Shown here piece after piece: positions 60,662 to 64,000 of a DNA stretch of 64,000 bases. This DNA comes from Pyrinomonas methylaliphatogenes (GTDB lineage: Bacteria > Acidobacteriota > Blastocatellia > Pyrinomonadales > Pyrinomonadaceae). Both the position numbers and the translations under genes were made by a program. Numbering within the stretch: position 1 is the stretch's first letter; the number at the start of each line of letters is the position of its first letter. The stretch covers positions 124,001-188,000 of the forward strand of contig NZ_CBXV010000005.1 in assembly GCF_000820845.2 (NCBI RefSeq). The letters run 5' to 3'. The notes under the pieces are model-generated. The model did not search any database and was not told where the DNA came from. It saw only the letters and a program-made list of their open reading frames with translations.

Positions 60662-61516
60662 TTACGAGGATCGTTTGGTGAAGATCTCTTCGATCTTGGG
60701 CAAACTTGCGCATTCGGTCGCCCCTTTCAACTCGTCGCGCATCGCGCTTAATCTTTCGATCATTGCATCCAACGCGAGTGCGATCGGTTGCGCGTTGGTC
60801 GTCAGGATGTCCCGCCAGATGGTCCAGGAACTGGCCGCCAGACGAGTCATATCGCGATATCCGGGACCGGCTAGATCGCGGAGCAGAGCAGCTTGCGGAT
60901 GAGTCTCAATGGTCGCCGCCAGCGCGCTCGACAGCAGTTGGGGAAGATGACTGATGTAAGCCACCGCTCGATCGTGTTCGAGAGCGGTCATTCGCTTAAC
61001 GCGCGCGCCAAACAGCTCGATCGTCCGTTGAAGGGCGGCGCGGGCTTCGGCGGCGCGTTGATCTTCTTCTATGAGGACGTAGCAGGCTCCGGCGAAAAGA
61101 TCGGGTGAAGCGTGCGCCAAACCGGTCAATTGGCTTCCGGCGATAGGGTGGCCGCCGATGAAGATGCGATCATCGGGCAAATTCTCAGCCGCGGCGCGAC
61201 ATATCTCAAACTTCGTGCTGCCGGCATCGGTGATGATCGCCCCGCGCTTGAACTGCTCGCCGCGTTCGCGGAGGAATCTGACGATTTCTCGGACCGGCAT
61301 GGCGAGATAGATCAGATCCGAGGTCGAAACGCCACCGGAGGCGAAGGCGTCGTCCACCTCATCGATGATAACTCGCGCCTTCGCCTCTTCGAGCGCGCGC
61401 GCCGAGATGTCCCAACCGGCGATTCGCCCGCATGCGCCGGTCCGCCGCAATGCTAGCGCGAATGAAGCGCCGATCAGACCGCAACCGATGATCGTTGCGC
61501 GTTCCCAGAGAGGCAT
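60662..61516 (-). CDS. tyrA: Prephenate dehydrogenase
   Basis: This 284-residue NAD-dependent enzyme catalyses the oxidative decarboxylation of prephenate to 4-hydroxyphenylpyruvate for tyrosine. The Rossmann motif is IIGCGLIGASFALAL, the substrate site is IGGHPIAGSQLTGLAHASPDLF, and the helical C-terminal region AVAYISHLPQLLSSALAATI contains the conserved His. It is the last gene of aroQ-pheA-aroF-tyrA, 3 bp after aroF. Confidence 0.93.
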   Translation of the reverse strand: MPLWERATIIGCGLIGASFALALRRTGACGRIAGWDISARALEEAKARVIIDEVDDAFASGGVSTSDLIYLAMPVREIVRFLRERGEQFKRGAIITDAGSTKFEICRAAAENLPDDRIFIGGHPIAGSQLTGLAHASPDLFAGACYVLIEEDQRAAEARAALQRTIELFGARVKRMTALEHDRAVAYISHLPQLLSSALAATIETHPQAALLRDLAGPGYRDMTRLAASSWTIWRDILTTNAQPIALALDAMIERLSAMRDELKGATECASLPKIEEIFTKRSS

Positions 61517-61519
61517 CTT

Positions 61520-62548
61520 TCAGCACGCTACGCAGGTGCTCGGCGCGAGCTGCCGCAGCGGGGCGGATAGACCGCGCATCATCTGCGCGAATTCCGTCAG
61601 ATCGAGCGACTGCGGACCGTCGGAGAGCGCGCGTTCCGGGCACGGATGGACTTCGACGATGAGACCGTCAGCGCCGATGGCGATCCCGGCTTTCGCGGCC
61701 GCGGCGATCAGACTGCGACGGCCCGTGCCATGTGAAGGATCGACGATGACCGGCAGATGCGATAGCTCTTTGACCAGCGCGACAGCGGCTAGATCGAGCG
61801 TGTTCCGCAACTCGGTCTCGAACGTTTTGATCCCGCGCTCGCAGAGCACGACGTTCTCATTCCCGCCGGAGAGCAGATACTCGGCAGCCAGCAACCATTC
61901 CTTGATCGTCGCCGATGGGCCGCGCTTGAGCAGGATGGGGCGCGGCGTCGTCGCAAGGCGGCGAAGCAGCGGGAAGTTCTGCATGTTACGCGCGCCGACT
62001 TGTAACATATCAGCATATTCGGCGACCAGATCGACATCCTCGGTGCTCATCACTTCGGTGACCACGGGAAGACCGGTCTCATCGCGCGCTTCCTTCAGCA
62101 AGCGCAGAGCTTCCACGCCGAGCCCTTGGAAATCATAGGGCGAAGTGCGCGGCTTGTAAGCGCCTCCGCGCAACATGTGCGCGCCCGCCGCACGAACCGC
62201 GCGCGCCGTAGTCAATATTTGATCGCGCGATTCGACCGAACACGGTCCGGCGATGACGATGACTTCTGGCCCGCCGATTTGCACGCCGCTGACGTTGACG
62301 ATCGTCTGTTCTCGCTTGAATTGGCGGCTGACGAGTTTGAACGGGTGCGTGATCGGCATGACATCTTCGACGCCCGGCGCGGCCCGCAACGCTTCGAGTT
62401 CATGGCGCCGCCCGCTGCTCCCTATGGCGCCGATGACGACCCGTTCGGCGCCGCGGCTGATGTGCGCGCGGAATCCACACTCTTCGACCCTTTCGACGAC
62501 ATGTTGGATCTCTTCTTCAGTCGCATCGATCGACATCGCGATGATCAT
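61520..62548 (-). CDS. aroF: 3-deoxy-7-phosphoheptulonate synthase (DAHP synthase, AroF/AroQ-type with ACT-like N-terminus)
   Basis: This 342-residue enzyme condenses PEP and erythrose 4-phosphate, the entry step of the shikimate pathway. The N-terminal ferredoxin-like segment (about 1-75), which senses aromatic amino acids in homologues, is followed by the barrel: [70 protein letters not shown] and [21 protein letters not shown] 62548 is preferred (AAAGGAAC upstream); ATG 62572 is possible. It sits in an operon with aroQ, pheA and tyrA under a leader-peptide attenuator. Confidence 0.95.
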
Positions 62549-62581
62549 GGCTGTTCCTTTCGACTCCTTCATAGTTGAATC

Positions 62582-63439
62582 TCAGAATCTCTCCTTCTCC
62601 GTTCTTTGAGCGGAACGATAACACCCCAAGAAACGAACTTCGTCGGCGCGCTCGCGCAGCTGCGCGAGCGCTGCGTCCAGTTCCGGATCGCCCATCTTCG
62701 CTTGCAGGTCGAGATAGAAGCGGTATTGCCAGGGTTGACCGGCGACGGGACGGCTTTCGATCTTGAGCAGATTGATCGCGCGACGCGCGAAAGGCTCGAG
62801 CGCGTAGTAGAGCGCGCCCGGTCGGTGTTTCAAACGCACGACGAGCGATAGTTTGTCCCCATCGGCGACGACGCGCGGTTCGCTTGAGAGAAGCACGAAC
62901 CGTGTGTAGTTCTCATGATGATCTTCCAGATGTTCGCGCAAGATGCGCCCGCCATAGACGCGCGCGGCGCGTTCACCGGCGATCGCCGCGTAAGCTGGAT
63001 CACCGCGCTCGATGACGCGACGCACGCTGCCGGCTGTATCTTCAGCCACGACGCGCTTGATGTGCGGATGTGCGGCGAAGAAACGCTCACACTGCGCGAG
63101 CGCGACCGGATGTGATTCGACGACGCGAACATCATCGAATGAGGCTTGCGGACATCCGATCAGATGATGGGCGATGGGGATGATGGTCTCAGCGATGATG
63201 TGCAGCGTCCGTTCGAGAAGCAGATCGTAGGTGCGATGCACTGATCCGGCGAGGCTGTTTTCGATCGGCGCCAGGATGTAATCGCTCGCGCCCTCGTCTA
63301 TGCTCGTAAAGAGCGCTTCGAAAGTGGGGCGTGGCACCAGCTCGATCTCCTCGCCGAGCAGTTTGATAGCCGCTTCTTCGCTGAAAGCTCCGCGCTCGCC
63401 CTGGAAAGCGACTCGTACTCTTTCGTTCGCCGCTCTCAT
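62582..63439 (-). CDS. pheA: Prephenate dehydratase
   Basis: The 285-residue monofunctional enzyme makes phenylpyruvate. The catalytic domain (about 1-190) has FQGERGAFSEEAAIK, PIENSLAGSVHRTYDLL and ENYTRFVLLS, with the conserved Thr in TRF. A C-terminal ACT domain (about 200-275) with RPGALYYALEPFARRAINLLKIESRP binds phenylalanine for feedback control. Its ATG overlaps the aroQ stop (ATGA), so chorismate mutase and dehydratase are coupled as in the fused P-protein of other bacteria. Confidence 0.95.
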   Translation of the reverse strand: MRAANERVRVAFQGERGAFSEEAAIKLLGEEIELVPRPTFEALFTSIDEGASDYILAPIENSLAGSVHRTYDLLLERTLHIIAETIIPIAHHLIGCPQASFDDVRVVESHPVALAQCERFFAAHPHIKRVVAEDTAGSVRRVIERGDPAYAAIAGERAARVYGGRILREHLEDHHENYTRFVLLSSEPRVVADGDKLSLVVRLKHRPGALYYALEPFARRAINLLKIESRPVAGQPWQYRFYLDLQAKMGDPELDAALAQLRERADEVRFLGCYRSAQRTEKERF

Positions 63440-63735
63440 CTGACCGTTTCGCGATGGGCTTCATCGGCGGCGACGCGCTGGATCGCCGTGCGTCTGGATT
63501 CGCGAATGATGCGCTTGAATATTTTGATCATGGCCGCTTCATCCAACGGCCCGCGATTGATTTGGCAAACGCGCGCGATCACCCGGCGTTCGCGCTCATG
63601 ATCGTGGATCGGCAGCCCGATCGCTCGTTTCAACACCCCTATCTCTATCGCCAAGCGCGCACGTTCGTTGAGAAGGCGCACCAGTTGCTCATCGATCGCA
63701 TCGATCTCCGCGCGCCAGTCGTCGATGTTGCCCAT
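63436..63735 (-). CDS. aroQ: Chorismate mutase (AroQ class)
   Basis: This 99-residue all-helical enzyme has DDWRAEIDAIDEQLVRLLNERARLAIEIGVLK, then GLPIHDHERERRVIARVCQ. These hold the expected Arg, Lys and Glu active-site positions. It converts chorismate to prephenate for Phe and Tyr. ATG 63735 is chosen; AAGGAG lies 11 nt upstream, which is slightly long. The open frame extends into the leader region without homology. First structural gene after the attenuator. Confidence 0.92.
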   Translation of the reverse strand: MGNIDDWRAEIDAIDEQLVRLLNERARLAIEIGVLKRAIGLPIHDHERERRVIARVCQINRGPLDEAAMIKIFKRIIRESRRTAIQRVAADEAHRETVR

Positions 63736-63784
63736 CGGTTTCGCATCTCCTTTTTGGCAGTTTCGAGTGCCGTATAACAAAAGA

Positions 63785-63819
63785 GCCGACCGCAACCTTT
63801 TCGGGAGGTTGCGGTCGGC
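63785..63819 (-). terminator. Attenuator terminator of the aromatic operon
   Basis: Minus strand: GCCGACCGCAACCT pairs perfectly (14 bp) with AGGTTGCGGTCGGC around CCCGAAA and is followed by TCTTTTGTT. It lies upstream of aroQ and downstream of a leader peptide. An alternative pairing with 63875-63892 would dismantle its 5' arm. Confidence 0.88.
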
Positions 63820-63853
63820 TTTCGCTTTCGATCTCGCTACGCTCTGTCTCGCT

Positions 63854-63943
63854 TCACTTGAGCGCGCGCGCCTCGCCTACCACGCCCTCCCGTCGGGAGC
63901 GGCGGTACGTAAAGGCGAAGTAATAAAACCAGAAGTGACGCAT
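63854..63943 (-). CDS. Aromatic-amino-acid leader peptide (attenuation)
   Basis: A 29-codon frame beginning MRHFWFYYFAFTYRRSRR and ending TGA. Codons 4-13 contain four Phe, three Tyr and one Trp. It precedes a terminator hairpin and the operon making Phe and Tyr. Region 1 (CTCCC, 63895-63899) can pair with region 2 (GGGAG), and region 2 (63875-63892) can pair along the entire 5' arm of the terminator. Stalling at the aromatic codons would therefore favour read-through. A Shine-Dalgarno is weak. Homologous leader peptides such as E. coli pheL are similarly Phe-rich. This is too small for routine gene finders. Confidence 0.85.
   Translation of the reverse strand: MRHFWFYYFAFTYRRSRREGVVGEARALK
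63875..63892 (-). promoter_or_regulatory. Antiterminator arm (region 2) of the aromatic attenuator
   Basis: Minus strand CGGGAGGGCGTGGTAGGC pairs with 63802-63819, covering the terminator 5' arm and part of its loop: 7 bp, a 2x2 internal loop, 5 bp (one G-U), one mismatch and 3 bp. It also pairs with the adjacent CTCCC of the leader, giving mutually exclusive structures. Confidence 0.75.
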
Positions 63944-63984
63944 CGCGCTACTTTAGGCCAAGCCTTGAAATCGCGAGAGGCAAA

Positions 63985-63990
63985 AATATA
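63985..63990 (-). promoter_or_regulatory. Candidate -10 box of the aromatic operon
   Basis: TATATT on the minus strand, about 40 nt before the leader peptide ATG. The matching -35 box would lie beyond the window edge and cannot be checked. Confidence 0.4.
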
Positions 63991-64000
63991 ACTGGACGCG

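Follow-up and report, generated by a model that had tools for sequence, protein, structure and literature searches.

In Pyrinomonas methylaliphatogenes, the aroQ-pheA-aroF-tyrA operon is very probably controlled by a classical ribosome-mediated transcription attenuator that would respond to charged tRNA-Phe and tRNA-Tyr. It lies near one end of the window (the whole 64,000-nucleotide stretch of DNA that was analysed), where a leader ORF, an intrinsic terminator, alternative pairings and a predicted promoter, together with their conservation, are demonstrated by sequence analysis. The reading draws on the match between leader and pathway, with chorismate mutase, prephenate dehydratase, DAHP synthase, and prephenate dehydrogenase encoded downstream; on conservation in Pyrinomonadaceae and two sister families, set against essentially no occurrences in shuffles or outgroups; and on a synonymous excess in the leader frame, pairings that beat permutations, terminator covariation, joint change of regions 2 and 3, and ribosome-mask folding. 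The elements and genes are as follows:

63985..64000 (the part within the window), minus strand: promoter by consensus prediction, -10 box TATATT at 63990-63985 and -35 box TTGACA at 64013-64008
63854..63943, minus strand: leader peptide ORF, MRHFWFYYFAFTYRRSRREGVVGEARALK and a stop codon, 29 codons, with homologous aromatic-rich ORFs in relatives
63905..63928, minus strand: predicted control codons 6-13 (F Y Y F A F T Y), from codon-by-codon ribosome masking
63895..63920, minus strand: region 1, 5′ arm of the 1:2 hairpin, overlapping codons 8-16 (folds)
63870..63892, minus strand: region 2, pairing with region 1 or with region 3 (antiterminator; folds, permutation tests)
63802..63820, minus strand: region 3, 5′ arm of the terminator (sequence, permutation tests)
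63776..63820, minus strand: intrinsic terminator (3:4 hairpin), 15 bp, loop CCCGAAA, T-run CTTTTGTT (covariation)
63436..63735, minus strand: aroQ, chorismate mutase (Pfam CM_2 PF01817, E = 2.7e-23), with the Shine-Dalgarno sequence AAGGAG upstream
62582..63439, minus strand: pheA, prephenate dehydratase with ACT domain (NCBIfam NF008865 above cut-off; Pfam PDT)
61520..62572, minus strand: aroF, DAHP synthase (NCBIfam NF006421 and TIGR01361 above cut-off)
60662..61516, minus strand: tyrA, prephenate dehydrogenase (Pfam PDH_N and PDH_C above cut-off)

The Pfam and NCBIfam matches bear out the four gene identities given in the first-pass annotation, which had proposed an attenuator ahead of them. 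The 29-codon leader frame that it described is likewise present: a short ORF in which codons for the operon's own amino acids are clustered, codons 4-13 reading F W F Y Y F A F T Y (Phe x4, Tyr x3, Trp x1). In 51 leaders, the densest 12-codon windows hold 251 Phe, 120 Tyr, and 6 Trp codons, and Phe and Tyr make up 41% and 20% of codons there versus 3.3% and 2.6% in the proteins of the window, an enrichment to be read with the caveat that these 12-codon windows were chosen for aromatics. Where codon-aligned FYYFAFTY leaders are compared, 19 of the 44 distinct codon differences that involve a single nucleotide are synonymous (21% expected, P = 9e-4). The amino acid signal read from these codons is Phe and Tyr. 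The suggestion that Trp is sensed as well was not supported. Trp occurs in the aromatic window of only 6/51 leaders, about the background level and without enrichment. For most of the footprints tried, a ribosome stalled at codon 5 (or 4) releases region 2 hardly at all. A pan-aromatic sensor that includes Trp was thus considered and set aside, Trp codons not being conserved within the effective stall window of the 51 leaders.

Conservation was assessed by searching for PheA in relatives, in 119 genomes of the same family (Pyrinomonadaceae), and in the named GTDB collection, and by applying a uniform rule that calls an ORF upstream of pheA when 6 or more of 10 codons in it are aromatic. One alternative is that the locus carries ordinary termination or a housekeeping read-through terminator, the aromatic ORF being a chance frame. 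Runs of Phe and Tyr can be encoded by any AT-containing stretch, and false positives do occur, two of the qualifying loci (G101 and G103) matching inside an upstream membrane-protein gene. Yet the rule is satisfied at 38/66 Pyrinomonadaceae pheA loci (about 36/66 once those two are removed) versus 6/1700 shuffled upstream regions and 0/34 outgroup pheA loci (Bryobacterales, Chloroflexi, and others), the leader frame has an excess of synonymous differences, and regions 2 and 3 change together across lineages. By these sequence comparisons a chance frame is already contradicted by conservation, and we give it next to no probability. Aromatic-rich leader ORFs were also not found in any of 44 stretches near trpE/hisG.

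Short ORFs rich in aromatic codons precede aroQ or pheA in many genera. Leaders of the FYYFAFTY type occur there in about 20 genomes, and a search for the FYYFAF pattern in the 119 family genomes gave 15 matches, about half of them adjoining pheA or aroQ. Other leader types in the family are FFAFYFSGFYYSAL, FYFYFYFF, and FSFYFYFSGKAAEVCVRIG; the two sister families have leaders of the FGFYFYFYFS or FFSFFFS type, and a Blastocatellia locus has the same kind of leader. In a genome of the same genus (G001), the leader reads MMRHFWFYYFAFTYRLSTREGGRAKRTRE and the terminator bears compensatory changes, the leader and pheA lying on different contigs. The aromatic-rich frame is thus kept in homologous leaders, in agreement with the check proposed in the first-pass annotation, and, as judged from these loci, conservation of the leader extends through much of the class to which this bacterium belongs. 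It is absent at the window-like pheA-type loci of one genus (g9) and in some other family members, and in one homolog (G008) a start codon for the aromatic frame was not found.

The RNA between the aromatic codons and aroQ can adopt mutually exclusive structures. Between the leader ORF and the first structural gene lies a GC-rich intrinsic terminator, AGCCGACCGCAACCT-CCCGAAA-AGGTTGCGGTCGGCT (63820-63784), followed by CTTTTGTT; the perfect pairing and the T-run had been noted before, and the stem is 15 bp rather than 14 bp long. Region 2, CGGGAGGGCGTGGTAGGC (63892-63875), pairs with GCCGACCGCAACCTCCCG (63819-63802) at 15/18 positions, which agrees with the complementarity claimed earlier, and this pairing with the terminator 5′ arm excludes the terminator. 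The 5-bp 1:2 hairpin of the first-pass annotation is present as CTCCC-GAC-GGGAG at 63899-63887, but its size was underestimated: with an outer stem CTTCGCCT:AGGCGAGG and an ACCGCC arm, the hairpin reaches back across codons 8-14. It comprises a conserved CCGCU...GGAGAGCGG stem and an outer UUCGCC:GGCGAA stem that extends over the FAFTYR codons. The fold of the whole leader has z = -4.1, and 0/200 shuffles are as stable.

Per-sequence folding with permutation of pairing partners was used for the 1:2 domain, because its MAFFT alignment was too loop-variable for pair counts. In 19 homologs, and in tests that ignore phylogeny, native partners gave more stable duplexes than permuted ones (1:2, P = 0.009; 2:3, P = 1e-4; 3:4, P = 5e-5), and for the 1:3 control duplex the native combination was not more stable than the permuted ones (P = 0.97). 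The terminator of 19 homologs shows both-side changes in 4/12 pairs, and 12 cells of its stem have changed on both sides versus 3.3 in shuffles. Both the permutation tests and the covariation support the 1:2, 2:3, and 3:4 pairings that had been put forward as mutually exclusive. Across seven lineages the antiterminator has been rewritten (GCGGCC, GAGGGG, GAGCGGG, GATGATGA, GACGGTTT) and the paired terminator arm has changed along with it, the mean 2:3 energy being -18.5 kcal/mol for native partners versus -14.0 kcal/mol when partners are swapped between groups; about 0.3% of group permutations (fraction 0.003, 7 groups) pair as well as the native arrangement, in a test that likewise takes no account of phylogeny. 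The sequences of regions 2 and 3 are entirely different from one lineage to another but stay complementary within each.

The effect of a ribosome on these pairings was calculated by folding the nascent RNA with a footprint at each codon and counting the pairing of region 3 with region 2, a procedure that describes equilibrium and not co-transcriptional folding. In the window's leader, the 2:3 probability is 0.64-0.72 while the ribosome occupies any of codons 6-14 and does not exceed 0.08 at other positions; codons 6-14 are recovered over most footprint sizes, and codon 5 is added only by the largest downstream footprint. Among 41 leaders, the antiterminator probability is 0.53 with the ribosome stalled at aromatic codons, 0.28 with no ribosome, and 0.06 with the ribosome later in the ORF, the last contrast being partly geometric since a ribosome further on covers region 2. 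The aromatic-codon stall gives a value above that without a ribosome in 35/41 leaders. Under equilibrium folding, the 1:2 hairpin is accordingly placed so that a stall at the control codons frees region 2.

The same stall might in principle be produced by an arrest peptide of the TnaC/ErmL kind, in which the nascent chain itself, possibly responding to a free aromatic amino acid as its ligand, halts the ribosome. FAFTYR is indeed well conserved within the FYYFAF group, non-aromatic residues included, but the 1:2 hairpin also accounts for the conserved nucleotides, and what the other lineages have in common is aromatic richness rather than residue order. By the established logic of trp versus tna, induction by the free end product does not suit a biosynthetic operon, and the response would have the wrong sign here; we regard such a peptide as very unlikely.

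A promoter of the form TTGACA-17-TATATT is predicted upstream of the leader ORF, with 11/12 consensus matches and a spacer of 17, where 0.1 would be expected in shuffles. Its -35 box lies 13 nt past the end of the window, the contig running on beyond 64000. Significant promoters are found just upstream in 30/33 homologous leaders. The predicted 5′ UTR in the window is about 35 nt, and transcription is thus predicted to begin ahead of the leader and not downstream of 63854, the situation that the first-pass annotation had named as incompatible with attenuation. No Shine-Dalgarno-like motif precedes the leader start codon in any of the 33 leaders tested, the window's included, which makes the efficiency of leader translation uncertain. 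In five relatives (G121, G126, and G130-G132), a distance of 10-11 nt separates the -10 box and the leader ATG, implying nearly leaderless transcripts and suggesting near-leaderless translation of the leader in these species. Two copies of the stretch GATCAACGATCCCTTAATCGAAGCTAGG lie a short way upstream of the attenuator promoter, at about 64039-64159 in window numbering and hence beyond the window end.

Alternative pairings by themselves would fit any anti-terminator input, including an RNA-binding protein, or a T-box or riboswitch, acting on the same terminator and antiterminator. With the covariance models of Rfam (release 15) at gathering score, no leader, T-box, or riboswitch match was found at 63600-64000, the only Rfam matches in the window being two tRNAs, and permissive thresholds added chance matches only. 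The lack of a match to a T-box, a riboswitch, or any leader family, the conservation of an in-frame run of aromatic codons, and the position of the antiterminator arm inside the ORF all argue against an input of this sort, which we consider extremely unlikely.

For the attenuator sensing Phe and Tyr, we infer ribosome stalling, read-through, and an amino-acid response of the following kind. Transcription would start about 35 nt before the leader ORF, with a ribosome trailing RNA polymerase along the leader. Under a shortage of charged tRNA-Phe or tRNA-Tyr, the ribosome would stall in FYYFAFTY (codons 6-13), covering region 1 and freeing region 2, which would capture region 3, the 5′ arm of the terminator, and it is proposed that polymerase therefore reads into aroQ. 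With aromatic amino acids in ample supply, the ribosome would run on, region 2 would be covered or refolded onto region 1, and the 15-bp terminator would form and transcription would stop near 63776.

Among the closest known systems is the enterobacterial pheL-pheA attenuator, which is Rfam Phe_leader. Both have a Phe-rich leader peptide, mutually exclusive 1:2, 2:3, and 3:4 pairings, and a terminator that immediately precedes the gene or operon for prephenate dehydratase. Unlike pheL-pheA, the leader in the window has no detectable covariance-model match, mixes Tyr with Phe codons, lacks a Shine-Dalgarno motif, precedes an operon that adds aroQ, aroF, and tyrA, and belongs to another phylum. 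The trpL attenuators of Proteobacteria and Actinobacteria follow the same logic, but the control codons here are for Phe and Tyr rather than Trp and the downstream genes differ. Some trpL leaders begin at or near the transcript 5′ end, as in the rhizobial case. A start so close to the 5′ end of the transcript is a further point of likeness with some trpL leaders (cf. PMC7298713). The uORFC-13-1 motif upstream of aroF in Acholeplasma is similar in that a Phe-codon uORF and a terminator are proposed to control an aromatic-pathway gene, but it has at least one Phe residue in a U-run and another RNA structure, and its range is limited to Acholeplasma and environmental sequences (PMC8632094).

In the open-access literature searched, no account of leader-peptide attenuation in Acidobacteriota was found, in line with the first-pass annotation, which knew of none. 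A survey from 2010 attributed leader-peptide attenuation to Proteobacteria and Actinobacteria, newly proposed a His leader in bacilli, and reported that almost no predicted attenuators in Acidobacteriota had a function (PMC2965389). Given this and the lack of an Rfam family match, what we describe is a known, textbook mechanism, documented mainly in other phyla, with new phylogenetic members in a new phylum, and not a new mechanism. Conservation and co-evolving pairings in a deep, little-studied phylum suggest that the mechanism is older, or has been reinvented more often, than assumed. The locus offers a model of how the synthesis of aromatic amino acids is regulated in soil bacteria that are abundant but uncultured, and the many lineages in which regions 2 and 3 have been rewritten together are useful for studying how such switches evolve. 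A broader proposal, to which we give somewhat less than an even chance, would join several parts: a lineage-wide attenuation regime in Acidobacteriota, in which one switch integrates Phe and Tyr supply and sets both the DAHP synthase entry and the two branches, the leader ORF is translated without a Shine-Dalgarno sequence and nearly leaderless in some species, and the architecture has been developed separately, within the class, for operons of Trp and of Ile/Val synthesis.

Other attenuators were sought at named operons only. At the window's own trpE a Trp leader, and at its hisG a His leader, were looked for and not seen. Upstream of hisG in G006 (locus L222) there is a short His-rich ORF, MRTFYSQFNHLHHHAIHRHHRAS, after which the rule used finds no strict terminator. 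Upstream of trpE, Trp leader peptides of the form ..AYWWSWP (L199, G039) and ..SWRNWW.. (L200, G006) occur, each followed by a terminator whose 5′ arm can pair without mismatch, over about 7 bp, with sequence that comes directly after the Trp codons; judged by these features, they are Trp attenuators from within the same class. Leader ORFs rich in Ile and Val (..IIIIAIISIIV.. in L229 of G037 and ..SIIVII.. in L231 of G009) lie ahead of ilvB, are followed by terminators, and are likely branched-chain attenuators. The occurrence of Trp and Ile/Val leaders with terminators suggests that attenuation of this kind is general in the class.
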